From assembly GCF_007856155.1 (NCBI RefSeq), contig NZ_CP042266.1, positions 6,014,001 through 6,078,000 on the forward strand: a stretch of 64,000 nt of DNA. The letters run 5' to 3'. Position 1 is the first letter of the stretch. Each line of letters starts with the position of its first letter. Positions 2,833-59,125 of this stretch are shown here, in pieces. Below the pieces are notes generated by a model. That model made no database searches. It worked only from the letters and a program-made list of their open reading frames with translations, and was not told the origin of the DNA. The stretch is from Streptomyces qinzhouensis (GTDB lineage: Bacteria; Actinomycetota; Actinomycetes; Streptomycetales; Streptomycetaceae). The translations under genes were made by a program, and so were the position numbers.

Positions 2833-5661
2833 ATGTGCGCCGGGACGTCCATGGACGGGCAGACCGTCTCTCTGCTGCGCCGCGAGGACATGGCCGTCCT
2901 CGACTTCACCTTCACCAACCTCAGCCGCTCCGGGCCCGCCGGACAGGTGGTGCTCACCCCCACCGCGCCCGCGCTGCCCGCGACGGTCACCGTGCACTTC
3001 CCGCCGCAGTCCGTACTGGAGGAGGCCACCTCGCCCGCGGACGCCACCACCGCCACCAAACGCGTGCGGTACGCGGGCGAGAGCACCCTCGCCTTCCGCG
3101 TCCCGGCCGGGGGCGGTGTGCCGTTCACCGTGGACGGACTGCTCACCTGGACCGGTCTGGCGCCCGACCGGGCCGCCCTGGAATGCGTCTGGGGCCTCTT
3201 CCTCGGCCCCGACACCCCGGATGTGGAATGGCGGCACTCCAACTTCCCCGTGATGGCGAGCGCCGGGACCTTCGCGCTCTGGCACACCCTGCTCGCGCCC
3301 ACCGGCTCGTCCGTGTCCGACGGCGGGCCCGTGGGGCTCACCGGAACAGCCGCGGCACGGCCCGAGGAGCCCTTCCTCAGCTCCCTCGACCCCGCGCACC
3401 GGCAGCAGATCACCACCGCCAGCGCCACCCGAGCCGTCACCGCCGACGCCCTCCTCCTCAGCGCCCTCGGCGCGAGCGTGGACCTCGTCGGCAACTGGGC
3501 CGACTACCCGGGCCTCGGCATCGAGGCCTACCAGCACCGGTCCGCGGTCGGCCGGGACACCACCGTCCAGGTCGACGAACGCGGCTATCTGCTGCCCTTC
3601 GGCTTCCCCGTCCAGGTCACCGCCCGCACCGAACGGCACCTCGACACCGGACTGCTGAAGGTCTACCGGCTGACCGTACTGCGGCCCGACATCTCCTACG
3701 ACGGCATCGCCGCCCTTCCGCACGAAGGACGCGCCTTCCCCTTCGCCCGGATCCGCCTCAACCGGCCCCTCGACACCGATGTCGTCCCCGCGGACCCCCT
3801 CGACGGCGCCGGCTACTGGCTGAACCGGCCCGACCAGCAGGACCAGCGGCTCCTCTTCGACCTCACCGCCGAGGACCGACTCGGCCACCGCGTCGACCTC
3901 ACCGCACCGCTCGTCTTCATCCACGGCGACCAGGCCTACGACCCCCCGACTCTGGCGGGCCCCCTGACGGCGTACGAGACGATCGCGGCCGGACTGCCAC
4001 TGTCCGCCACCGGCCGGCTCACCCTCGCGCCCGTCCCCGGCAGCAACTCCGAGACGTCCACGGTCGATGTCGCCGAACTCCGCGTCGGCGCCGTACCGTC
4101 CACGGCCCAGCCCGCCGAACTGCTCGCCGCCGGACGCCTCGCCGCACTGCCCCGGCTGCTCTCCGTCGGCGCCCGGATCCCCGCCATGGACGCCATGGCA
4201 CCCCCGCTCCCGGCCGCGGCCGCCGCCATCGCCGGGCCGCCCGGCACCGGGCCCGCCGTCGGGGCCGTCCGGAGCCTGATCCTGGACAACGACTACGTAC
4301 AGAGCGGACTCGCCGCCACCCATCAGGTGTACGCGTCCCTCGCGTCCGCCGTCCCGTTCGCGCCGCCGCCCACCGTCTCCGGCGCGGTCGCCGCCCTCGG
4401 CCTGCCGGTGCACGGGCTCTCCGCCACCACCGGACTCGTCGGCGGCCCGCTGGACGCCGTGAAATCCGGACAGTTCAACGCCACCGACTACCTCTCACCG
4501 ACCGGCACCGGCAGCGCCCTGCCCACCCGGCTGCTCGGCGTCATCGACCTGACCCAACTCGTCCCCTCGGGCCCCATCGGCGCCGGTGACGGCACCACCG
4601 CCCCGAAGATCCTCACCACGGTCGAACGGCCCGACGGCGACCTCAAGCCCCCCACCGCCGTCCGCACCGAACTGACCTGGACCCCCGATGTCTCCCACAA
4701 GACCGTCAGCTGCCTCACCACCGGCGCCGACGCCACCCTCGACCTCCACAGCACCACCGTCACCCGCTTCGACGGCACCCCGCCGACCGCCGAGGTCCGG
4801 GGCGAACTCCGCAACTTCACCCTGAGCTTCGCGGACATCCTCGACATCGGCTTCCGGCGGGTCGGCTTCACCAGCAAACCGGGCACCACCCCCGCACTCG
4901 ACGTCCAGATCGGCACGGTCGGCTTCTCCGGAGACCTCAGCTTCCTCAACAAGCTCCGCGAATATCTGCCCTCCTGCGCGGGCGGACCCCGGATCGACGT
5001 CGGCCCCGACGGCATCCAAGTCGGCTACGGACTGGCCGTACCCACCATCGAAGCCGGCATCTTCCTCCTCCAGAACCTCACGCTCACCACCACCATCACG
5101 CTCCCCTTCACGGAGAAAGCGGTCACGGCCACCTTCGCCATCTCCTCCGCCGACCACCCCTTCCTGATCACCGTCTCCTTCCTCGGCGGCGGCGGCCACT
5201 TCGCCCTCACCGTCGAAGCCGGCCAGGTCACCGCACTCGACGCCCAGCTCCAGTTCGGCGCCGCCGCCGCCCTCGACCTCGGGATCGCCAGCGGCTCCGT
5301 CTCCATCACCGCCGGGATCTCCCTGCACCTGCAGAACCAGGCCTCCAAACTCGAAGGCTTCTTCCGGGCCGTCGGCGCCCTCGACGTCCTCGGGATCGTC
5401 AGCGTCTCCGTCGAGTTCTTCCTCGAACTCGGCACCGAACAGGTCCCCAAGCCCGGTCTCCCCGGACAGACCCGCACGGATGTCGTCGGCAAGGCCTCCG
5501 TGACCGTCCGGGTCCGCGTCGCCTTCTTCTCGCAGTCCGTCACCCTCTCCGTCGAGCGCCGCTTCGGCGGCGGCGGAGACCCCTCGTACGCAGACGCCTT
5601 CCCCGACCAGACCTCCTGGGACCGGCGGTGCGCCGCCTTCGCCGATATGGAGGACGCATGA
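2833..5661 (+). CDS. large uncharacterised beta-rich protein (942 aa)
   Basis: I do not recognise this family. The ATG at 2833 is preferred because AGGAG lies 10 nt upstream; the frame extends further 5' without a convincing signal. The product has no signal peptide or clear transmembrane helix. The first 500 residues are Ala/Pro/Thr-rich with many short predicted strands. The last 250 residues alternate hydrophobic and polar positions (for example ITLPFTEKAVTATFAISS and KASVTVRVRVAFFSQSVTLS), a pattern of amphipathic beta strands as in barrels or elongated beta sheets. It ends in an ATGA overlap with the next gene, so the two are translationally coupled and probably act together. Start and coding status are secure from codon bias; function is unknown. 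Confidence 0.8.
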   Translation: MCAGTSMDGQTVSLLRREDMAVLDFTFTNLSRSGPAGQVVLTPTAPALPATVTVHFPPQSVLEEATSPADATTATKRVRYAGESTLAFRVPAGGGVPFTVDGLLTWTGLAPDRAALECVWGLFLGPDTPDVEWRHSNFPVMASAGTFALWHTLLAPTGSSVSDGGPVGLTGTAAARPEEPFLSSLDPAHRQQITTASATRAVTADALLLSALGASVDLVGNWADYPGLGIEAYQHRSAVGRDTTVQVDERGYLLPFGFPVQVTARTERHLDTGLLKVYRLTVLRPDISYDGIAALPHEGRAFPFARIRLNRPLDTDVVPADPLDGAGYWLNRPDQQDQRLLFDLTAEDRLGHRVDLTAPLVFIHGDQAYDPPTLAGPLTAYETIAAGLPLSATGRLTLAPVPGSNSETSTVDVAELRVGAVPSTAQPAELLAAGRLAALPRLLSVGARIPAMDAMAPPLPAAAAAIAGPPGTGPAVGAVRSLILDNDYVQSGLAATHQVYASLASAVPFAPPPTVSGAVAALGLPVHGLSATTGLVGGPLDAVKSGQFNATDYLSPTGTGSALPTRLLGVIDLTQLVPSGPIGAGDGTTAPKILTTVERPDGDLKPPTAVRTELTWTPDVSHKTVSCLTTGADATLDLHSTTVTRFDGTPPTAEVRGELRNFTLSFADILDIGFRRVGFTSKPGTTPALDVQIGTVGFSGDLSFLNKLREYLPSCAGGPRIDVGPDGIQVGYGLAVPTIEAGIFLLQNLTLTTTITLPFTEKAVTATFAISSADHPFLITVSFLGGGGHFALTVEAGQVTALDAQLQFGAAAALDLGIASGSVSITAGISLHLQNQASKLEGFFRAVGALDVLGIVSVSVEFFLELGTEQVPKPGLPGQTRTDVVGKASVTVRVRVAFFSQSVTLSVERRFGGGGDPSYADAFPDQTSWDRRCAAFADMEDA

Positions 5662-8600
5662 CCGCCACCCTGCAGACCCTGATCTGGACCCTGCTGCCGG
5701 ACCCGGCGGTCCCCGTCACCACCCCCGGCACGGTCCCGCTCTCCATCGTCATCAGCATCCGGCTGTCCAACGACGAAGGGGACCCGCCCGGCACCGCGGT
5801 CCTTCCGCTGTCCGACTACCCGACCGTCGCCGACTGGCCGTCCTTCGCCTTCGACCCGCTGACCGTCATCGTCAAACAGGAGGGCGGCGGGGCCTCCGTC
5901 ACCCCCATCGCCACCTTTCAGGACGGTCCGCCGAACGGCGCCCTGTGGCGGGCGCTGTTCCCGCCGGCGCTGCCGGTCCGGCCCTTCGTCTTCGACGAGG
6001 AGGCCACCCACTCCTTCATCCGCTGCTACCCCGCCGCCCGGCTCTCCCGCTCCCTCAGCGATATCTACACCGGCCTGCTGACCACCGGACCCGAGCGGCA
6101 CGGCCTCGGCGCGGCGGACCGCTGGGCCGCGGCGGACCGGCTCGTCCGCCGCGTCGGCGCCCTCGACGACTCCGACCGGGACTTTGCCGTCCACCGCGAA
6201 CTGCCGCGCTCCGGAGCCGTACCCGACGACGATCCCGGCGACCCCGAGGGCTGGGCCCGGCTCGCCGACTTCCACCGGCCGCTGAACTCCTCGCCGTCCG
6301 CCCGGCACTCGGCCGCCTTCGGGCGCGGCACCCGGAACACGTACGAATTCCACGCCCTGCTCGCCGCGCTCGCCGACCATCCGGAGCTGATGGTCCCCCT
6401 CGGCCTCGTCCGACGGCTCACCATCACCATCCCCACCGACCTGGAAGGGCCCTTCACCCTCCAGGCACTGCCCCATCTGAGCACCCTGCTGGGCAGTTAC
6501 CGGCCCCGCACCCGGTGCGTCGCCCACGCCGGCACCCTCTCCCTCGCCGACCCGCAGGGACACCCGGGCGCCACCGTCCTGCCCCTCGACGACAGCGCCG
6601 TCTACACCCCCATCGACCACGATGTCGACGCCGCCGGACTCGCCCTGCGGTCCTACGCCGCCGCCCTGCGGGACCTGCCCCGCGACGCGCCCCCGCCGCC
6701 GCTCAAACCCCCGGCCCTGCGCTCCGACGGCATCTTTGTCGCCGAAGCCGACCGGCAGATCGCCTTCCGGGCCGTTCTCACCAACGCCGCCGGTATCGAC
6801 GCGGACCTCAAGGCGGGCGGCGAGGGCGATGCGACGGTGATGGACGCCTCCACCGTGCAGCAGGGCATCCGGGTCGACGTCCACGACGAGGGCTCCGGCC
6901 ACTGGTATCCGCTCTGCCGCCGCACCGGCCGCTACACCGTCGACCAGTACGGCACCCTGCCCGTCGACGACGAGGGCGTCCTCACCGACACCGTCAGCAC
7001 CGGCACCGACGCTTCCGGCAACCCGATCCAGAAACTCACCCCGGCGCTGTTCCGCTGGAACAACTGGAGCCTGGTCGCCGAACCCCGCGGCCGGACCGTC
7101 GGCATCGACGGCGAACTCACCGACCCCGCCCCCCAGCAGAACCCCGCCCTCCCCTTCGCCGCCGACTTCACCTGCCCCGACCACACCCTCCCCACCCTGC
7201 GCTACGGACGCACCTACCGCTTCCGGGCCCGGCTCGTCGACCTCGCGGGCCGCAGCCTGCCCTTCACCCGCGACCCCACGCCCGCCGACCGCACCACCAC
7301 CCCCCTCACCTTCGCCCGCTACGAGCCGGTGCCCGCCCCCGTCCTCGTGCTGCGGCGGCCCGTCACCACGGGCGAGTCACCGACCGCCCTGGTCGTCAGG
7401 ACCGACAACGCCGACCCCGCCGCGCCCGCCGCCGGACCCACCTGCGAACGCCATCTCCTCGCCCCCAAGGCCGCCCTCGACCTCATCGAACGGCACGGCG
7501 TCCTCGACCTGCCCGGAAAACACCGCACCGACCCCGCCGTCCACCCCCTCCTCACCCGCTACGACGACGGAAAGATCACCGGCACCCCGGACCCGGACGC
7601 GGGTGGCAGCCCGTACGTGGACACCGACACCCTCGACCTCCCCTGGCTGCCCGACCCACTCGCCCGCGGCATCGCCCTCCACGGCGTGCCCGGTACCCCC
7701 GAACTGCTCACCGACTGGCCCGCCGGAGGCCCGGACTGGTACGCCCGGCTGCCGATGCGGCTGGTCGTCGTACCCGGGCCGATGGACAGCACGCAGTCCA
7801 CGGCCGTCGCCGACCCCGCCGCCCGTACCGTACGCGTCACCCTGAACCCGGCCGCCGACTTCCCGGCCGTACTCGGCTCCCTCCCGGCCCCCGGCGACGA
7901 GGACCTCCTGGGTCCCTGGCGCTGGTACACCGAGCGCGAAGGGGTCTCCGCCGCCGATATCGCGGCCGCCCGCACCGCGGCCCGCTCCGGACGGCTGGGA
8001 CAGCTCACCCCCGTCACGGACCTGACCCTCGTCCACGCCGTACGCTGCCCTGTCACGGCACCGGTCTTCGACGGTGTCACGATCCTGCGCGCGCCCGGCG
8101 AGACGGCGTACCTCCTCGACGATCCGGCCATGGGCGTCCACGGCGCCTCCACCCTGACCGTGCACACCGAGGCGGAGTGGACCGACACCGACGACGATCC
8201 GTCCCAGGACGGTCCGGTCCCCGTTCCGGCGCTCGCCGTACTCCGCCCCGAGAGCGAACCGCTCAGCGACCCCGGCGGACCGGCCCTGACCACCGTGCCG
8301 TTCCACACCCGGCACGACCCCGGCGACACCCGGCACCGGATCGTCACCTACACCCCCGTCGGGGCCTCCCGGTTCGTGCCGTACTTCATCCAGCGGCGCA
8401 CCGTCACCCTCACCGGGACCGACCCCGTCGCCGTCGCGGGCGGCTTCGTCCCCGGCACGGTCACCGTCCGCGAGACCGGGCCGGCGCTCACCGCCGACGC
8501 CACCCCCGCCGGGCCCGGCATCACCTACCGCCCCGGAACCGACTACACGGTCGACGAAACCGGCGGGACCGTCGCCCGCGGCGCCGCCGGGACGATCCCC

Positions 8601-9584
8601 GACGGGGCAGCCGTCGACGTGTCCTTCGCCGTGCCGCCCGTCACCCGCTCCGGACCGCCCGTCACTCTCCATGTCCCGTCGACCGTCGCACCGCCCGTAC
8701 CCGTGGTGCACTCCGTCGTCCCCGCGTTCCGCTGGTCGCGGACGGTGAACGGGAACACGACCATCAGCATCCGCCAGGAGGGCTCGGTCCGCGTCCATCT
8801 GAAACGCCCCTGGTACGTCTCCGGGGCGGGCGAACTCCTCGGCGTACGCGTCGTGGACCCGCAGACGCCGCCGGGCGATCCGGCGGCCCTGGACTGGGCC
8901 ACCGCCTGGGCCCGTGACCCGGTCCGGGACCCGGGCGCGGCGCCCTTCCCGGCCGGTTTCCCGGGCCCCGCCGACCTCGACGGCTGGACCGCCGATATCG
9001 GCCTGGGCGCCGCCGGGGGACACGCGCTGGGCTTCGGCGTCGACTACGACCCGCAGCGCCGTCTGTGGTGCGCCGACATCCATTTCAAGGCGGGCAACGC
9101 CTACCAGCCCTTCGTCCGGCTCAAGGTCGTCCGGCTCCAGCCCGACTCGCTGACGGACCCCGGTGATCTGCGGCTCTCTCCCGAGGTCGACGCCGGATTC
9201 GTCCAGCTGCCGGCCTACCGGCGGGCCAGGGTTGTCCTCGGCGGTACCACAGCGGGCTCACCGGTCGCGGTGACGGTCGTGGGACCGGCGCCGCCGGACG
9301 GGCCGGACGGGCTCACCTCACGGATGACGGCGGTCGTCCAGTTCCGCAGCACCTCACTCCTCGACGACATCGGCTGGCTCGAACTGGACTCGGACCCCGT
9401 GGAACTGGCCAAGGACCCGGCGGGCGGCCCGGTCGGCCTCTGGACCGGGACGGTGCGGCTGCCGAACGCCGTGGGCGTACGGGATATGCGGGTGCTGATC
9501 CGGGAGTACGACAGCCAGCCGGACAGCCCGGTTCCCGGCGAGCGGACGGAACGCGTCTCGTATCTGGACACGATCCCGGTCTGA
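5658..9584 (+). CDS. very large uncharacterised multi-domain beta-rich protein (1308 aa)
   Basis: The start ATG overlaps the TGA of the preceding gene (ATGA at 5658-5661). The product is rich in Pro, Thr, Asp and Ala, has no signal peptide or transmembrane helix, and looks like a string of immunoglobulin- or jelly-roll-like beta modules. One is near residues 510-530 (YRFRARLVDLAGRS, as in Ig-like folds); another around residues 915-990 resembles a beta-sandwich linker (ITYRPGTDYTVDETGGTV). No catalytic motif was found. Size, lack of an export signal and pairing with the 942-aa protein suggest a structural or scaffold role, but this is inference. It converges on the PatG_C-like/Cys-rich operon, and the five genes seem to form one locus. 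Confidence 0.8.
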   Translation: MTATLQTLIWTLLPDPAVPVTTPGTVPLSIVISIRLSNDEGDPPGTAVLPLSDYPTVADWPSFAFDPLTVIVKQEGGGASVTPIATFQDGPPNGALWRALFPPALPVRPFVFDEEATHSFIRCYPAARLSRSLSDIYTGLLTTGPERHGLGAADRWAAADRLVRRVGALDDSDRDFAVHRELPRSGAVPDDDPGDPEGWARLADFHRPLNSSPSARHSAAFGRGTRNTYEFHALLAALADHPELMVPLGLVRRLTITIPTDLEGPFTLQALPHLSTLLGSYRPRTRCVAHAGTLSLADPQGHPGATVLPLDDSAVYTPIDHDVDAAGLALRSYAAALRDLPRDAPPPPLKPPALRSDGIFVAEADRQIAFRAVLTNAAGIDADLKAGGEGDATVMDASTVQQGIRVDVHDEGSGHWYPLCRRTGRYTVDQYGTLPVDDEGVLTDTVSTGTDASGNPIQKLTPALFRWNNWSLVAEPRGRTVGIDGELTDPAPQQNPALPFAADFTCPDHTLPTLRYGRTYRFRARLVDLAGRSLPFTRDPTPADRTTTPLTFARYEPVPAPVLVLRRPVTTGESPTALVVRTDNADPAAPAAGPTCERHLLAPKAALDLIERHGVLDLPGKHRTDPAVHPLLTRYDDGKITGTPDPDAGGSPYVDTDTLDLPWLPDPLARGIALHGVPGTPELLTDWPAGGPDWYARLPMRLVVVPGPMDSTQSTAVADPAARTVRVTLNPAADFPAVLGSLPAPGDEDLLGPWRWYTEREGVSAADIAAARTAARSGRLGQLTPVTDLTLVHAVRCPVTAPVFDGVTILRAPGETAYLLDDPAMGVHGASTLTVHTEAEWTDTDDDPSQDGPVPVPALAVLRPESEPLSDPGGPALTTVPFHTRHDPGDTRHRIVTYTPVGASRFVPYFIQRRTVTLTGTDPVAVAGGFVPGTVTVRETGPALTADATPAGPGITYRPGTDYTVDETGGTVARGAAGTIPDGAAVDVSFAVPPVTRSGPPVTLHVPSTVAPPVPVVHSVVPAFRWSRTVNGNTTISIRQEGSVRVHLKRPWYVSGAGELLGVRVVDPQTPPGDPAALDWATAWARDPVRDPGAAPFPAGFPGPADLDGWTADIGLGAAGGHALGFGVDYDPQRRLWCADIHFKAGNAYQPFVRLKVVRLQPDSLTDPGDLRLSPEVDAGFVQLPAYRRARVVLGGTTAGSPVAVTVVGPAPPDGPDGLTSRMTAVVQFRSTSLLDDIGWLELDSDPVELAKDPAGGPVGLWTGTVRLPNAVGVRDMRVLIREYDSQPDSPVPGERTERVSYLDTIPV

Positions 9585-9673
9585 TCCCGGTCTGATTCCC
9601 GTCCGATCCCCGTCCGACGATGCCCGAACGGGAGCTCGGCGTCAGGTCAGTCGGGTCAGTCGGGGCAGTCGGG

Positions 9674-9967
9674 TCAGATATCGCAGGTGCTGCTGATCCG
9701 GACCGGCGGGTCCACCGTGATCCTGCCGTCGCACTGCTTGCACGTCGTCACCTTCATCGTGGTGCCGTTCTCGTCGCAGTACAGCCGGTCCCTGCAGTCG
9801 GGCCCCGGGCACTCGCACAGCGTCATGCACGGTCCCATGCACCGCGCTTCGCACGCCGTGGGGTCGTACGCGTGCAGACACTGGTGCCAGCACTCCGCAC
9901 GGCACTCCTGATCGCAGAAGTCGAGGGGGACGTCGTTGCCGCTCCACGCGGCCGTGAATCCGGGCAT
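9674..9967 (-). CDS. small cysteine-rich CX3C-array protein
   Basis: This 97-aa protein has 14 cysteines. Two arrays stand out: C-x3-C-x3-C-x3-C near residues 18-30 and C-x3-C-x3-C-x3-C-x-C near 39-53. A CECPGPDC stretch and a CKQC pair follow. Repeated CX3C spacing puts cysteines on one helix face, as in disulfide hairpins or metal clusters. No signal peptide is visible. The start could be ATG 9967 or GTG 9973 (GTGACCATG); the ribosome site is not decisive. It is the last gene of a three-gene minus-strand operon, 35 bp after the PatG_C-like gene. It could be a structural metalloprotein or a modified-peptide precursor; I do not recognise the family. Confidence 0.7.
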   Translation of the reverse strand: MPGFTAAWSGNDVPLDFCDQECRAECWHQCLHAYDPTACEARCMGPCMTLCECPGPDCRDRLYCDENGTTMKVTTCKQCDGRITVDPPVRISSTCDI

Positions 9968-10002
9968 GGTCACCGTTCTCACCTCTCCACTCCGGGCACC
10001 CC

Positions 10003-10824
10003 TCACAGGGAGGGGGCGAGAGGGGTCAGCAGATAGGGATACAGATACTCCGTGTCGACCAGCGCGGACCAGCGTTCCGTCAGATCCGTCCCGCGCTGGG
10101 TGAAGGACAGGGTGAAGCTCACCACGCCCCGGTCACCGCCGACGGGCGCGGGCCCGACGTCGATCGACGTCAGCGCCGAGTCGGCGGCGAACGCCTCGAA
10201 GGTTTTGACGTACACCGCCGCGTACCGGCAGGTGATGTAGTTCGCGGCCCGGTCCTCGGCGGTGGCGCCCGCGTTCGCCGCGACGGCCAGCAGCCGGGTG
10301 AGCACCTCGTCGGCGGTCTTCCGGAACCGCTTGGCGGGCATGTCCTTCGGCTTGTCGACGGCGTCGACGAGTTCGGTCCGGTCGAACGAGTACACCTGCT
10401 CGAACTCCACCATCGGAAGCCGCGAGCCGCCGCACCCCCCGGGCGGGACCGGCTCGCGCACCCCGATGAGGACATCGAGGTCGAGGGGCGTCGGCTGCGG
10501 CCGTACCGCTTCGATCAGCCGGTCGTAGTCCTCTTCGTACCGGGGGCGCACGGTATAGGTCTCCACGCCCCGGACCGAGAACACATACAGCAGCTGCCGG
10601 GCCAGATAGCGGTTCTCGGGCCGGTCGATGACCTCGTGCAGGGCCTCGTGGTCCGTCCGTCCCCGGGTGTCGGTGCGACCGGTGGCCTGCGCGAACTCCT
10701 TCTCGACCCCGCGATCCGGGAAGCGGCAGCCGATGCGCCCGATCGCGTACACGAAGGCGGGCCGCCGGGGCGCGTCCCCGGGCTCGGGAAGGGGGGTGTC
10801 GTCACTCGTGCCAGGCTCACTCAT
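10003..10824 (-). CDS. free-standing PatG C-terminal-domain-like protein
   Basis: The 273-aa product resembles the C-terminal domain found after the subtilisin domain in cyanobactin proteases of the PatG type. The run FVYAIGRIGCRFPD, then VEKEFAQATGR, NRYLARQLLYVF, GVETYTVRPR, LIEAVRPQPTPLDLDVLIG and NYITCRYAAVY follows that family's conserved order as I remember it. There is no protease domain here, so it is a stand-alone version of unknown activity. The ATG at 10824 has GGGAG upstream. It lies between the CGGC small protein and the Cys-rich protein in a tight operon. The function of this domain in cyanobactin enzymes is itself unresolved, so calling this a RiPP enzyme would go beyond the evidence. 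Confidence 0.7.
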   Translation of the reverse strand: MSEPGTSDDTPLPEPGDAPRRPAFVYAIGRIGCRFPDRGVEKEFAQATGRTDTRGRTDHEALHEVIDRPENRYLARQLLYVFSVRGVETYTVRPRYEEDYDRLIEAVRPQPTPLDLDVLIGVREPVPPGGCGGSRLPMVEFEQVYSFDRTELVDAVDKPKDMPAKRFRKTADEVLTRLLAVAANAGATAEDRAANYITCRYAAVYVKTFEAFAADSALTSIDVGPAPVGGDRGVVSFTLSFTQRGTDLTERWSALVDTEYLYPYLLTPLAPSL

Positions 10825-10868
10825 GGCAGGCTCCCGGTGTCTCGCCGCCGTGCCTCGGGGCCGGGGTC

Positions 10869-11084
10869 TCAGCGGCGCCGTTTGGTGAAGGTGACCCACT
10901 CGTTCATGCGCCGGGCCCGGCGGGTGCAGCCCCCGCACGGCGCAACGCCCACGGCACGGGTCGCCCGGGAGACCAGATCACCGAGCCCGATCTCTTCCTC
11001 GCGTACGAAACCGGGCACCCGGACCTGGTGGTTCCGGCGCGCCCGTCCCTTGTGGTCCTCGCCGTCCCGGCGCTCACCACCCAT
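10869..11084 (-). CDS. small CGGC-motif basic protein
   Basis: This 71-aa protein has AGGAG 8 nt before its ATG. The C-terminal half carries GLGDLVSRATRAVGVAPCGGC followed by a basic helix and NEWVTF. A similar pattern (GLGD, CGGC, then a basic segment ending in N-x-W) recurs in small uncharacterised bacterial and phage proteins. The two cysteines in CGGC suggest metal or redox chemistry. It is the promoter-proximal gene of the operon that continues into the PatG_C-like gene 44 bp downstream. A precursor-peptide role is possible but not shown. Confidence 0.65.
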   Translation of the reverse strand: MGGERRDGEDHKGRARRNHQVRVPGFVREEEIGLGDLVSRATRAVGVAPCGGCTRRARRMNEWVTFTKRRR

Positions 11085-52587: not shown

Positions 52588-53349
52588 TCACCAGAAGCGC
52601 TGGAGGACGCCTGTGCGCTGGAGCTCCGCCACATGCTCCGCGGCCCGCGCCGGCGCCGAGCCTCCTCTGATGAGGGTTCCGGCCTCGATGTTCCGGTCCA
52701 CTCCCGATTGTGTGAGGTTGGCGCTGGTGGTCAGCAGCGTCCGCCGGTCGGCCACGGCCAGCTTCGCGTGCGTCTTGGCCCCGGGCTCCGCCCTCTTGTC
52801 CGGCGGCCAGTGCCAGAGGCGTGCCCCCGGCACATCGGTGAACGCGCTCGCCGGTTCCTCCCCGGAAAGGGCGCTGCCCGCGCCTTGCAGCGTCTCGACG
52901 ACGATGTCCAGGCCGACGCCCCGGGCCGCGGCATCCTGCAACGCCTCTATCAGAGGTGGGTACCGCCGTGCCGAATAGGTCATGAGAGTCAGCTCTGTCC
53001 GTGCCTCGGCGATCAGCCCCAGGAGTGCCCGGTCCGTGGACCGTACGGGCACCCGGTGGGAGGAAGGGCCGCTCCACACCAGTGAGACCTCCTGTTCCCG
53101 GTCGCGCTGCGCGTAGCCGGCGGCCAGCCCGTGCAGCCAGGCCGCGGCTTCCTCCCGGGACAGGCCGTCGGTGTCGATCGCATCGAGCACGGCAGCCGCG
53201 GCCTCCGTGTAGGCGGCGGCCGACCGGACTGTGAGCAGTGTGGCACGGGGCTCTCCGGCCGCTATGCCGTCGGCCAATGCGCCCAGCGCGAGGACTCCCG
53301 CGGCTGCCTCCGCCTCCGCGGCCGCCTTGAGCAGCCGTACCCATCTCAC
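52588..53349 (-). CDS. drmC: DISARM DrmC, phospholipase D-like protein
   Basis: A 253-aa PLD-family protein with one HKD-type motif, HAKLAVADRRTLLTTSANLT, and a second basic/hydrophobic half, as in DISARM DrmC. The GTG start overlaps the drmB stop (GTGA), confirming an operon. DrmC is the putative nuclease component; in published DISARM work it is often dispensable. It is the last intact gene of the operon. Confidence 0.9.
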   Translation of the reverse strand: MRWVRLLKAAAEAEAAAGVLALGALADGIAAGEPRATLLTVRSAAAYTEAAAAVLDAIDTDGLSREEAAAWLHGLAAGYAQRDREQEVSLVWSGPSSHRVPVRSTDRALLGLIAEARTELTLMTYSARRYPPLIEALQDAAARGVGLDIVVETLQGAGSALSGEEPASAFTDVPGARLWHWPPDKRAEPGAKTHAKLAVADRRTLLTTSANLTQSGVDRNIEAGTLIRGGSAPARAAEHVAELQRTGVLQRFW

Positions 53350-55256
53350 TTGAGGCCCTGGAGGAGCACGAGGTCCGGGCCGTCGACGGGGACGATGAAC
53401 CGCCGGTCCAGGAAGCGGTTGCCGCGCTCACAGGTCGTCTCCGACACGAACAGGCATACATGGCAGGCGGCGCCGTGCAGGAAGTCCTCGTGCGGTGGCC
53501 GGGGCAGCCGGTCCGCGCACAGCGGGTCGGAGGAGCACCGCTCGGCATCATGGAGGGCGCGCCGGACCACCCTGCTGAACTTCTCCGGTTCCGCCAGGGC
53601 CACCAGCCCGCCCAGGGTCCCTTCGGCGTCGGGGACCGCGGTGTACATCAGGATGCCGGTACGCCGGTCGTCCTCCCGGCCGGCGTAGATCCGTTCGGAG
53701 AGGCTCGCCGAGGAGTAGCCGCATTCCAGCGAGATGGCACGGATCAGCAGATGCGACAGTGTGTGGAGCGCGATGTAGCGGGCTCCCGGCCAGCCGCGCA
53801 GCGGGTCGTCGTTCTCCTCGACCCGGCCCGAGTAGCGGTTTCGGCGGAACTCGACGTAGGCGTCCCGGTGTGCCGTGAGGGCCGTGGTGCCGGCCACCCG
53901 CTGCTCCCAGTCGGCCATCAGCTCGTCCGAGACCCGTAGGAAGATGCCCTCGCCGCGAACCTCGCTGGCCGGTACCCAGGCCGGAACGCGGCCGCGGGAC
54001 AGGGGCGCGCGGGCCACCAGGGTGGGGTCTTCGGGGTCCGGGGCGTCGAGCCGGGTGAACCCGATCAACGCCCTCACCTCCCGCAGCCGCTCCGCCTGGA
54101 CGACATGGGAGAAGATCCCGTCGAGGGCCGGTGGTACCGGTACGTCGCGCAGCGCGAAGTCCTCGGTCGGTTCGGGAAGCTGCGGTCCGGTGAAGATTTC
54201 CCATTCGGGTGTGAGCAGGTCCGGATACGAGGCGCCCTCCGAGGACGGGGGCTCCGCGGCCGCGGCCCGGTGCGCCTCGATGGCCTCGAAAACCTCGGCC
54301 TGGCTCCACTGGTGCAGCGGTTTGAACTGCGGGAGCTCCCACACCATGTCGAGGAACTCCGGCGACTTCGCCTTCTGCAGGTGCTCCCACAGCTGTTCCA
54401 CCTTGCCCTGCAGGGCACTCCCGCCGGTCGGCGGCACGGCCAGGACGCTGAGTGTCTGCGCGAACCACTGGTTCGACGCGCCGATGACGAGCGGCTTGGG
54501 CCGCTGCTTGCAGCCTGCCGGATCGAAGGATGCCAGATGGGGGTGGCGGCCCCGGCAGTGCGGCAGGCTGATCTCGCCGCGCTGCCCCATGGCGTCGCGG
54601 ATGTTGCGCTCGCTGCCGCAGTTGACGCAGCGCACCTTCACATTGGCCGCCTGGTTGCCGCCGTGGTCGAGCATCTCCAGCCGTGGATGGCTGGCCTCGG
54701 CGCAATTCCCGCCGCGGTGGACGAACGACGCGTATGGGAAGTCGTCCAGATGCCCGGCTTGGCAGACCAGGACGAAGCGCGCCGCGACGGCGAGCGGGCC
54801 CTTGCCTTTGCGCCTGGCGGTGCAGTTGCCGTGGAAGAAGCGCGCCTGGTCGGGACGCCGGGGCTTGGCATTCTCGAACGTGAAGATCTTGGAGTCGAGG
54901 CCGCCGAGAGCGTTGCAAGCGGTGCACCGCAGCCACTGGGGGAAGGGGAGGACCGGGACGCCGACGCGGGATGCGGGGCCGGTGGGGTCGTTGTCCGTGC
55001 CGTCGATCCAGGGCGCGGGCCGCAACTGGGTGACCTGGGCGCCGTACGGTTCGCCTATCAGGCCGTTGACGGCCCGCAGCAGCCGCGGCTCCTTCAGGTC
55101 CGCCCACTCGAACGCGTCGTACTGCCAGTCGTCGATCCCCCGCACCAGGACGGCGAAGTTGGGCAGGTCGACCAGAGCGCCCACCCCGCCGGTGTACATC
55201 AGATGGCTGGGGCGTACGGATCCGACCCGGCGCCGGTGCTGTGACTTGTCCGTCAT
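53346..55256 (-). CDS. drmB: DISARM DrmB (DUF1998 protein)
   Basis: A 636-aa protein with the C-terminal DUF1998 region (LIRAISLECGYSSASLSERIY ... CSSDPLC ... CHVCLFVSETTCERGNRFLD). N-terminal zinc-type cysteines appear in LRCTACNALGG and VRCVNCGSERN. DrmB works with the DrmA helicase in target recognition. Its ATG overlaps the drmA stop (ATGA) and its stop overlaps drmC. Confidence 0.95.
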   Translation of the reverse strand: MTDKSQHRRRVGSVRPSHLMYTGGVGALVDLPNFAVLVRGIDDWQYDAFEWADLKEPRLLRAVNGLIGEPYGAQVTQLRPAPWIDGTDNDPTGPASRVGVPVLPFPQWLRCTACNALGGLDSKIFTFENAKPRRPDQARFFHGNCTARRKGKGPLAVAARFVLVCQAGHLDDFPYASFVHRGGNCAEASHPRLEMLDHGGNQAANVKVRCVNCGSERNIRDAMGQRGEISLPHCRGRHPHLASFDPAGCKQRPKPLVIGASNQWFAQTLSVLAVPPTGGSALQGKVEQLWEHLQKAKSPEFLDMVWELPQFKPLHQWSQAEVFEAIEAHRAAAAEPPSSEGASYPDLLTPEWEIFTGPQLPEPTEDFALRDVPVPPALDGIFSHVVQAERLREVRALIGFTRLDAPDPEDPTLVARAPLSRGRVPAWVPASEVRGEGIFLRVSDELMADWEQRVAGTTALTAHRDAYVEFRRNRYSGRVEENDDPLRGWPGARYIALHTLSHLLIRAISLECGYSSASLSERIYAGREDDRRTGILMYTAVPDAEGTLGGLVALAEPEKFSRVVRRALHDAERCSSDPLCADRLPRPPHEDFLHGAACHVCLFVSETTCERGNRFLDRRFIVPVDGPDLVLLQGLK

Positions 55257-58200
55257 CCCTGTGCCCTCTTCCCGTGACGGCCCGCCCTCTCGGCCTTGCC
55301 GTCCAGTACGGCGCCCGTTTCATCTCCCTCGGGCGAGTCCTCGTCGTCGGAGCCGGGCCGGCCCGCCCCGGCCGCGTAGCTCCACGCGGGCGCCCCGCCG
55401 ACCACGTCGTAGAGGCCGGCCCCCGGCACCAGCAGGTTGATCTCGTTCTCCGTCTCACGCATCGACTGGGCGACCGTGAGCTCGTCCCAGGTGGCGCCGG
55501 TGGCCCGGTTGAGCAGCCCGCTGAGCCGCTGGCCCTGCCACGCCGCCTCCTCGTATCCGAGACGGGCGGAGCCCTGTTTCTTACGCGCCCAGGCGTCCTT
55601 GAGGACCTCGATGCGCTCCCCGAGATACTTGCGGGCACGCGGTCCGCCGACGGTCTCGGCGCGGTCCAGGAACCGCTCGGTGACTTGCTGCGCGACCGGG
55701 CCGTCGAGGTCGAGGTCGTAGGCGTCGTGGTTGCGGGAGTGCGGAATGGTCGCGTTGCGCACGGCGGCGATCCAGGCCGCCGCCGTCGTCCGGTCCAGGG
55801 AGCGGCGGGCGAACGGGGTGACGGAGAGGGCTTCGACCTGCCGGTAGAAGGTGGCGTGGTAGTGCCCGAAGTTCTCGAAGTGGGCCAAGTCCCGTGGCCG
55901 CGTCCAGTTGTAGAGCGCCACGACCAGTCCCGGGCGCCGGGCATCGCGGCCGACGCGCGAGGACGCCTGGATGTACTCGGCCGTGTTCTTGGGCTGGCCG
56001 ACGACCATCATGAGGCCGAAGCGGGAGACGTCGACCCCTACCTGGAGCATGGAGGTCGCGATGACCGCGTCGATCGCTCCCGTCCCCTCGTTGCGCAGTC
56101 CCAGCTTCGAGAAGTCGAGGCGCTGCTTGCGCTGTCCGGCCTCGCGCAGTTCGTCGGCGACCGCCTGTCGCCGCACGGTGGTGTCCATGGACTCGTCGAA
56201 GGACACTTCAAGACGGGACAGTACCTCCGTGATGTCGGCGGAGGAGATGCGTGAGGTCAGCTCCTGGACGGACAGCATCTCCGTGCGGCGCAGGAGGCGG
56301 TTCGACAGGCCCTTGCGGGTTCCGTGGATCCGCACACGGGTGGTGATGTCGTCGTCGAGGAAGCGCCGCATACCGGCGAGTTCCCGCGTGGCGTTGAAGT
56401 AGCCGACCAGCGTCATATAGGGGTCGGCGGGCTTGCCGTGCCGGTCGAAGAGGGTCTGACCGGCCAGGAACAGGATCTCGGCGACCCTGATCTCGGCCTG
56501 CTTCATACGGACGCCGTGGGCGCAGATGCCCAGATAGCGCCGCCCAGGCGCTTCCTTCGAGAGCTCGACCTGCTGGGAGAAGAAGGTGTCGCCGATGTCG
56601 ATGACCTGGGGCGGGAAGATCGCCGACTTCCGCGCGAAGACACCGCTGATCTGGTCCGCCGACCGCTTGGTCGTCGCCGTGGATGCCACGATCTTGGGCC
56701 CGACGCGGACGGTGGTCCCGTAGGCGTCCTGCGCCGGCCAGCCGCACAGCTCGTCCACCGCCGCCTCGAAGAGGCCGACGGTGGTGCCCAGCGCGCCCGA
56801 GATCAGATGGAGTTCGTCCTGGATGATCAGGTCCGGCGGGCGCAGCCGTGTCACCGGCTTGCTCCTCACGGCCGCGTGCTTGCCCTTGGCCTGGTGCTTC
56901 TCCCCGCACTTGGTACGGGTGTCGAGGTCCGCGTGCCGGTAGCCGTGCCTCGGGCAGAGGTCGGAGACCCGCCCGAAGAGCATGCCCGCCTGGCCGCGCC
57001 ACGGCAGCTGCGCCAGTTTGTCGACGGTGGCGATCAGCAGGCCGGGGGCCAGCCGGTAGATCTCCTCGTCCACCGTCAGGATGGGCAGGCCCTCACCCGG
57101 TGAGCGGCGCTGCGAGAACGGACACGCCTGCTTGCCCTCGCCGTTCGGGCAGTAGAGCAGGATGCGGCGCAGGTCACCGTCGGCGTGCAGATCGCGCTGG
57201 GCGCTCAGTGCGGAACCGCACCAGGGGCAGGCCAGCGTCTGGAGCACCTTCGCGCCCTTGCCGTCTCCGGCGCCCTTGGCTTCGGCGATCTGCTTCTCGG
57301 CCTCGTCGAAACTGTTCGGGGAGACCGCGCCGCCCACCCAGAGGCCGATCCGGAAGGGAGTGGTCCCCCAGCGCACGTCGCCGCCGTCGTAGGCCTCGCG
57401 GCGCAGCACTTCGGCGGCGCAGACCAGCGCCGCCGCCCGCTGGAACTGCTGGGCGGTCAGCAGCCGCAGGGTGTACCGCATCAGTACGGCGACGCCGGCC
57501 TCGCCACTGCGGGCGTCATCGCCCGTGCCGATCGTCCCCTGGAGCCGGCGGATGGCGAAGGTGAAGGCCGCGAGCCCGAGGTAGGCCTCGGTCTTGCCGC
57601 CGCCGGTCGGGAAGAACAGCAGGTCGACGATGCCGTCCGGGCCCGCCTCTCGCTCTTTCAGCGTCGGGTCGGCGAGTGCCCGGAGGTTGAGGAGGACGAA
57701 GGCCAGCTGGAACGGGCGCCACGATGCGGCTGCCGGCCCCTCGGCGTCGATGCGCTGCTTGGCCTCCTGGAACGCGATGCCTTCCCGCTCCCGCAGCGCC
57801 GCGATGGCGGTGTGGCGTCGCTGGAGGGCCATGGCCCGGTTGGCGAACCGGAACGCTTCCAGCACCTCGGGCCGTTCGGGGTTCGAGAGGGCATCCACGC
57901 CGAGGGCGATCCGGACGGCGACGTCCCGGGCCTGACCGATCGCGTCGAGGGCGCCGGCGCGCAGCGCCCCGGTCAGCTGTTCCGCCTGCGCGTCCCGCTC
58001 GTCGAGCCAGGCGCTGTAGCCGTCGGCGAGTGGAGCCAGGGCGTCACGCAGCGCGGCCGGGGGGAGCACGGCGAGCTCGTCCATGGACAGCTCGATGCCG
58101 TCGAGGTGCTGCGCCGTCGCCCCGGACGGGGCGATCGTGGCCGGGACGTCGTGTACCGGCAACCAGGTGGTCGTGAGGGCGTGGGCCCGGCGCTGCCCCT

Positions 58201-59125
58201 TGTCGACGGTGACCGCCACGGCTACGTTGCGGCCCGCCGCGTGCTTCAGACGGTCGCGGTAGAGCAGCGTCAGGTGCTGCTCCTCCAAGTCGGCCGCCCC
58301 GAAAATGTCCTGGGCGGCTTCCGCGGCCTCGTCCAGCGGATCGGAGATCGGCAGGAAGACCGGCGCCGTGCCGTCGGCGGCCGTCACGTGCAGCTCGGTC
58401 TGGAACAGCCAGGCAGCGTCCTTCGCCTGCTGGGGCTCGTCCTGCGCGTTGACGAGCGACAGCTCGACGACGCGGCTCGGCCCCGCGGCACCCGGCCGGT
58501 CGCGTACTTCCGCGACCAGCCGCACCCCGGGGGCGTCCTCTCGGTCGGCGGTGAGTGGCAGGACCTGGCGGGGCGCGCTGTCGAGCGGGACGGTGACGAC
58601 CTTCTCGACCTGCTCTCGGCTCCAGGTGGAACGCGCGACGTCGTCGTCGCCGAGAACCTGCGACCGGTGGTACTGCCCCCAACGGATCCGTACGGCGACC
58701 GCCGCAGTGTCGTCCGCTGCCGGGACGGCGAACATCAGGCCCATCGACGAGGCCCACATGCGCCCCGCGTTCTGGGTGGTGAGCCGCTCCGGGAGCCCCT
58801 GGTCGGTGCCGTCCCCTTCTCCGTCGGAGTCGTCGAGGAGCTGTTCGTCGGCGGCGGCGAGGCTGGTGCTCAGGGCACGCTTCGGACCGATCCGCCCCAC
58901 CAGATACCGGTCCCGGGGCCCGGCGGCCCGGTGGTCGAACACCTCGTCCGGCCCGTCCCACGGGCCGAGCAGGTCCCGGCTGATGAGCTCGCCCAGGTCG
59001 TCCCGGATCTCGTACGAGGACGCCGGCACGAAGTTCTGCGCCACCTCACGGACCCGCTGGAGGAGGTCCTCCTCCGTCGAACCGCTTTTACTGCCCGGGC
59101 CTTCGGCGGTTTTGCCCGTCGCCAT
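55253..59125 (-). CDS. drmA: DISARM DrmA helicase
   Basis: This 1290-aa SF2-type helicase has Walker A FFPTGGGKTEAYLG, the DExx box IIQDELHLISGAL, STATT motif, and the C-terminal AVIATSMLQVGVDVSRFGLM and QASSRVGRD motifs (VI). The tail (YNWTRPRDLAHFENF, FYRQVEALSVTPFARRSLDR) is characteristic of DrmA. ATG 59125 (MATGKTAEGP) is preferred; the frame is open upstream but overlaps the preceding gene. It is the core restriction component with DrmB. Confidence 0.95.
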   Translation of the reverse strand: MATGKTAEGPGSKSGSTEEDLLQRVREVAQNFVPASSYEIRDDLGELISRDLLGPWDGPDEVFDHRAAGPRDRYLVGRIGPKRALSTSLAAADEQLLDDSDGEGDGTDQGLPERLTTQNAGRMWASSMGLMFAVPAADDTAAVAVRIRWGQYHRSQVLGDDDVARSTWSREQVEKVVTVPLDSAPRQVLPLTADREDAPGVRLVAEVRDRPGAAGPSRVVELSLVNAQDEPQQAKDAAWLFQTELHVTAADGTAPVFLPISDPLDEAAEAAQDIFGAADLEEQHLTLLYRDRLKHAAGRNVAVAVTVDKGQRRAHALTTTWLPVHDVPATIAPSGATAQHLDGIELSMDELAVLPPAALRDALAPLADGYSAWLDERDAQAEQLTGALRAGALDAIGQARDVAVRIALGVDALSNPERPEVLEAFRFANRAMALQRRHTAIAALREREGIAFQEAKQRIDAEGPAAASWRPFQLAFVLLNLRALADPTLKEREAGPDGIVDLLFFPTGGGKTEAYLGLAAFTFAIRRLQGTIGTGDDARSGEAGVAVLMRYTLRLLTAQQFQRAAALVCAAEVLRREAYDGGDVRWGTTPFRIGLWVGGAVSPNSFDEAEKQIAEAKGAGDGKGAKVLQTLACPWCGSALSAQRDLHADGDLRRILLYCPNGEGKQACPFSQRRSPGEGLPILTVDEEIYRLAPGLLIATVDKLAQLPWRGQAGMLFGRVSDLCPRHGYRHADLDTRTKCGEKHQAKGKHAAVRSKPVTRLRPPDLIIQDELHLISGALGTTVGLFEAAVDELCGWPAQDAYGTTVRVGPKIVASTATTKRSADQISGVFARKSAIFPPQVIDIGDTFFSQQVELSKEAPGRRYLGICAHGVRMKQAEIRVAEILFLAGQTLFDRHGKPADPYMTLVGYFNATRELAGMRRFLDDDITTRVRIHGTRKGLSNRLLRRTEMLSVQELTSRISSADITEVLSRLEVSFDESMDTTVRRQAVADELREAGQRKQRLDFSKLGLRNEGTGAIDAVIATSMLQVGVDVSRFGLMMVVGQPKNTAEYIQASSRVGRDARRPGLVVALYNWTRPRDLAHFENFGHYHATFYRQVEALSVTPFARRSLDRTTAAAWIAAVRNATIPHSRNHDAYDLDLDGPVAQQVTERFLDRAETVGGPRARKYLGERIEVLKDAWARKKQGSARLGYEEAAWQGQRLSGLLNRATGATWDELTVAQSMRETENEINLLVPGAGLYDVVGGAPAWSYAAGAGRPGSDDEDSPEGDETGAVLDGKAERAGRHGKRAQG

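Follow-up and report, generated by a model that had tools for sequence, protein, structure and literature searches.

The 64-kb window analysed here (64,000 nucleotides of Streptomyces qinzhouensis NZ_CP042266.1, lying entirely within one contig of an 8.15-Mb genome that is placed in Streptomyces also by its closest named protein relatives) carries a five-gene locus that consists of two separable modules: a pair of very large coupled genes, referred to below as giants A and B, and an opposing operon encoding a CGGC-motif small protein, a stand-alone homologue of the C-terminal part of PatG and a Cys-rich small protein. The peptide module is probably a variant of ribosomally synthesized and post-translationally modified peptide (RiPP)-like maturation, and the giants correspond to nothing with a name in Pfam, NCBIfam, PADLOC or PHROGs, the libraries that were searched. 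We tentatively propose, with a probability of about 0.4, that the locus encodes a two-giant complex and, alongside it, a RiPP-like line that matures a disulfide-rich peptide for the complex to use.

Conserved linkage of the two modules

The two modules are joined in 11 distinct loci (the window, L029, L030, L046-L052 and the plasmid copy L171), all confined to one clade of Streptomycetaceae, and the recurrence of the arrangement bears out the suggestion of an earlier note on this DNA, made from the sequence alone, that the composition and gene order are non-random. In a tree of giant A computed by a quick method from the last 400 residues (78 rows, L050 and L053 left out), the nine linked rows form one group explained by one change, with a Shimodaira-Hasegawa-like approximate likelihood ratio test (SH-aLRT) support of 86. 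The block is intact in the 11 loci down to ~48-54% identity of A, and its flanks differ: a flanking gene family is shared by eight of 45 locus pairs, and in six of these pairs it is one and the same family of BTAD regulators, two members of which were confirmed with Pfam; a ferritin-like gene flanks three loci (L048, L052 and L171). The Cys-rich gene is found in 11/11 linked loci, with 12, 13 or 14 Cys, and the CGGC gene in all ten chromosomal or draft copies (tblastn).

We favour a joint function of the modules, because the clade has kept the block in changing flanks with a peptide type of its own. The main competing explanation, which we regard as unlikely, is that two unrelated modules became adjacent by one event and have been co-inherited without any joint work. 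Because the linkage arose once on the tree, such neutral co-inheritance retains some probability; moreover, each module is common without the other, and the two are transcribed convergently and not as one operon. It is opposed by the integrity of the block at this divergence of A despite differing flanks, by its occurrence, once, on a plasmid, and by the restriction of the 12-14-Cys peptide type, among the loci examined, to linked ones, the nearest exception being L156.

All five genes, and the ATGA overlap that places the start codon of B within the stop codon of A, lie where the earlier note had put them (Table 1), with the minus-strand trio (CGGC, PatG, Cys-rich) convergent on the A-B pair.

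Table 1. Genes of the two-module locus, in window coordinates
Feature	Position	Strand	Description
Giant A	2833-5661	+	942 aa; family unnamed in libraries searched; C-terminal amphipathic beta-meander (AlphaFold model)
Giant B	5658-9584	+	1308 aa; predicted tandem FN3/Ig-like domains (model, residues 1-1195)
Cys-rich small protein	9674-9973	-	14 Cys; PGFTA N-terminal; likely precursor peptide
PatG homologue (stand-alone PatG_D + PatG_C)	10003-10824	-	273 aa; counterpart of PatG-DUF
CGGC small protein	10869-11084	-	71 aa; RVPGFVREEEIGLGD motif and PCGGCxxR

The PatG_D/C, CGGC and Cys-rich proteins

Both Pfam domains are found in the PatG homologue, PatG_D at E 4.3e-23 and PatG_C at E 6.6e-18. 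The Pfam scan detected no protease (S8) domain in it, in agreement with its initial description as a protease-free homologue of the PatG C-terminal domain. A profile of the window family retrieves PatG-DUF (4uvq) as its sole solved relative (E 6e-6), a new fold according to the 2014 structure report (PMC4259220). The window protein has 2726 relatives at E <= 0.001, with Streptomyces, Nitrospira and Pyrinomonadaceae among the 120 listed. Of 392 Streptomyces genomes, 33 carry PatG_C.

Read from its GTG start, the Cys-rich protein has 99 aa (110 aa from a longer GTG start) and the spacing CX3CX3CX3C-X8-CX3CX3CX3C; in ten aligned proteins from linked loci nine Cys are fully conserved and a further three almost fully. 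The PGF-type N-terminal motif pattern (LGF for PGF in L048) is present in linked and unlinked loci alike and, judged from the sequences, may be the leader of a precursor. The CGGC protein has a weak match to PHROG 32048, whose function is unassigned. A literature search on the motifs, and on PatG with Nitrospira, returned no paper, most subscription papers being outside its coverage.

The PatG module was also surveyed where the giants are missing. Twenty Streptomyces PatG_C regions were fetched, in 17 of which PatG was found by profile (not in L161, L166 and L169); together with L041-L045 these make up 22 PatG loci that have no giants within 8 kb. In 20 of them an S8 subtilase is either fused or encoded on the PatG strand no more than 2 kb away, the other two (L157 and L158) being short contigs. 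Inspection by eye revealed a CGGC-type protein in 10/22 loci and a PGF/PRF/PRL-type Cys-bearing small protein, with 6-9 Cys, in 11/22. A script for the PGF/PRL-type motif called 12 small frames in 0.62 Mb, 11 of which lie within 3 kb of PatG on the same strand; the window's own PGFTAA falls outside this strict definition. Among the 11 linked loci, five have S8 (L029, L030, L046, L047 and L050, where it is in pieces), five gave no S8 match with tblastn (the window, L048, L049, L051 and L052), and in L171 none is annotated. This neighbourhood check thus identifies recurring neighbours of the PatG-like gene, namely the S8 protease, the CGGC protein and the PGF-type Cys-rich peptides. The three operon genes had been correctly recognized from the window; the leader-like motif and the S8 subtilase of several close relatives had been missed.

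Two side observations concern the same protein family. S8-PatG fusions were found in two Streptomyces loci (L167, 9303-12200; L168, 8718-11732) that encode short repeated precursors with a fixed leader and follower, a variable middle and flanks resembling cyanobactin recognition sites; by their sequences, these are cyanobactin-like clusters in actinobacteria. In Nitrospira (L176), a CGSC protein, PatG_D/C and a 56-Cys protein are encoded in a row, the last of 376 aa (7112-8242, minus strand) with a weak Stig1 match.

The 14 Cys and the CGGC motif could also indicate that the Cys-rich protein binds metal or acts in redox chemistry instead of being secreted as a peptide, with the CGGC protein as its thiol partner, and the PatG-DUF report (PMC4259220) describes a Zn ion in the crystal. 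However, the Zn ligands are said in the same source to be poorly conserved, and the even, helix-spaced CX3C arrays and the neighbouring protease fit a disulfide-rich precursor, so that we consider this explanation improbable.

Distribution, export signals and predicted folds of the giants

Neither A nor B of the window matched anything at the curated cut-off in the four libraries, a tail-tube match of B lying below threshold; the giants were thus tested as a possible known family and matched none with a name, and the earlier statement that no named system has this composition holds for these libraries. Diverse members share no common Pfam domain, either for A (three single weak matches among 36) or for B (PG_binding_1 in 2/34 and Big_3_5 in 1/34). 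A protein search, in which 7994 candidates were scored for each giant, identified at least 50 relatives of A and at least 77 of B; the labels among those listed are at most 'hypothetical', except for two B relatives, one labelled 'Baseplate protein J-like' and the other as peptidoglycan-binding.

When one genome per species was scanned, 163 A relatives were obtained and 79 loci retained; with the Streptomyces loci added, the A set comprises 93 loci, one genome being represented twice (L030 and L053). B is present in 91 of them, the remaining two stopping at a contig end, and A is followed by B on one strand in 91/91. The named A loci span 11 phyla. Giant A occurs in 13 of 121 Streptomyces genomes, and the source genome itself holds a second, distant A-B pair (L028, 8280-15381; 854-861 kb) without the PatG module. 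Relatives of B are also carried on megaplasmids of Cupriavidus metallidurans, Rhizobium and Diaphorobacter (L172, L173 and L174). Giant A is nearly identical in Rhodococcus rhodnii and Kibdelosporangium aridum (L108 and L110), which suggests a recent transfer or mislabelled assemblies.

When upstream frames were read, a start of the twin-arginine translocation (Tat) type was found on A in 27 of 93 loci, 18 by script and nine by eye (a nineteenth script call, L086, was dropped by eye). These belong to Bacteroidota (11), Actinomycetota (5), Chloroflexota (4), Pseudomonadota (4), Acidobacteriota (2) and Armatimonadota (1). A stricter script applied to called genes gave 17/79 for A, four of which look false because they lie inside the mature start, 24/699 for other genes and 0/77 for B. 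The genes beside the giants outside the clade are mixed: no family has more than three members among 85 same-strand neighbours, the commonest being PG_binding_1 (3), M23 (3) and BNR_2 (2), and our impression of lectin-like, propeller and cell-wall-lytic neighbours is unsupported by these counts.

The long C-terminal meander of A was modelled with a predicted local distance difference test (pLDDT) score of ~70-80, and Foldseek matched A mainly to outer-membrane proteins with template modelling (TM) scores near 0.1. A could be imagined as a membrane-inserting beta-barrel and A-B as a pore-forming or outer-membrane complex, a reading that we find quite improbable: TM-scores do not exceed 0.13 by query length at this model quality, no transmembrane helix was seen, and many hosts have no outer membrane. 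Furthermore, Tat exports folded proteins, which is at odds with classical outer-membrane insertion. Derivation of A and B from relics of phage-tail or injection-machine parts is very improbable, since B had no match in 50,697 phage records and no sheath, tube, spike or ATPase gene was noted among the neighbours examined. A phage origin was rejected because no phage record matched, and a role in anti-phage defence because none of the five proteins has a PADLOC match.

Comparison with known systems

The PatG_D + PatG_C region is common to the window protein and the PatA/PatG proteins of cyanobactin pathways, but the window PatG is stand-alone, without a fused or cluster-encoded S8 protease, and no YcaO (PatD) Pfam match was found among the locus genes and neighbours scanned, no genome-wide search having been made. 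The core of the cyanobactin precursor is flanked by two recognition sequences, G(L/V)E(A/P)S and one of the AYDG type (PMC10885120); read directly, the 99-aa Cys-rich protein of the window contains neither of them. As several defining features are absent, membership in the cyanobactins was rejected.

The module resembles S8-processed RiPP pathways in that varied Cys-rich small proteins bear an N-terminal motif that looks like a leader and an S8 subtilase is encoded close by; the differences are that no known modifying enzyme is present, that the helpers are the CGGC and PatG_D/C proteins, and that the window is without S8. In the twin-CX3C helical hairpins of small Tim-type proteins, Cys are placed four residues apart on two helices. 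The Cys-rich protein of the window likewise has Cys four apart on two predicted helices, but with four Cys per array instead of two and further C-terminal Cys, and no homology is claimed. For the giants, the nearest parallel is provided by E. coli PaoABC and other Tat hitchhiker complexes (PMC4273604), which also have coupled genes and one partner with a Tat signal and the other without; in contrast, no cofactor enzyme domain was found in the giants, and the window clade is without the signal.

Separately from this locus, DrmC, DrmB and DrmA models strongly match three genes of a DISARM-type set in the window (52588-59125, minus strand).

Proposed mechanism and its implications

According to the proposed mechanism, A and B, the products of two coupled genes in one operon, probably assemble into a single large complex rich in beta structure. 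Because A carries a Tat signal in other lineages, the complex is probably exported folded by Tat, and B, which has no signal, would travel with it, as would be expected by analogy with established Tat biology. The CGGC and PatG_D/C proteins probably handle the PGF-type leader on the precursor, the core of which would hold two Cys-zipper helices, and the S8 subtilase, which about half of the relatives encode beside the trio, probably cleaves this leader off. Once mature, the disulfide-rich peptide of Streptomycetaceae probably acts together with A-B, or rides on it, at the cell surface or beyond. From gene order, conservation, motifs, presence and absence patterns and predicted folds we infer complex formation, hitchhiker export, leader function, peptide maturation and the partnership of peptide and giants. 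The earlier note had suggested assembly of a modified or metal-bound Cys-rich peptide, or a surface structure, for a single locus; in outline, a Cys-rich peptide and a structure that is exported or lies at the surface are retained here, while the single-locus view was incomplete, as there are really two modules.

Several observations weigh against a two-giant complex with its own peptide line. No S8 gene was detected by tblastn in the window operon or in the 64-kb window, the best relative in the genome being 28% identical, and no Tat signal (RRx[FLIVMA] followed by an uncharged hydrophobic stretch) is present on A of the window or its clade mates. In L171, the plasmid copy, no CGGC protein was seen, and the unlinked PatG locus L156 encodes a 15-Cys small protein without the motif. 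Outside the clade, PatG_C is present in just one of 50 giant-bearing genomes, and giants were found near none of the 22 other Streptomyces PatG loci examined; a general need of the giants for a peptide is further disfavoured by the 204 small genes that lie around 82 unlinked giant loci, of which the Cys criterion selects two, both unrelated. Finally, in a published assay (PMC4259220), PatG-DUF did not bind the PatE precursor, which speaks against a simple version of the idea that PatG_D/C handles the leader or precursor.

The fullest form of the proposal is possible but rather doubtful. It holds that A-B would be an undescribed two-part exported machine of at least 11 bacterial phyla, with A guided by Tat and B as its hitchhiker, to which Streptomycetaceae would have added a RiPP-like PatG_D/C and CGGC line maturing a disulfide-zipper peptide that the giants carry, display or are plugged by.

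If the proposed complex and its maturation line are real, the PatG domain, the structure of which was solved in 2014 (PMC4259220), would gain a protease-free natural setting and candidate partners in the CGGC protein and the PGF-motif Cys-rich peptides. Likewise, a testable role, that of an exported complex, could be assigned to a widespread pair of very large proteins that belong to no named family.
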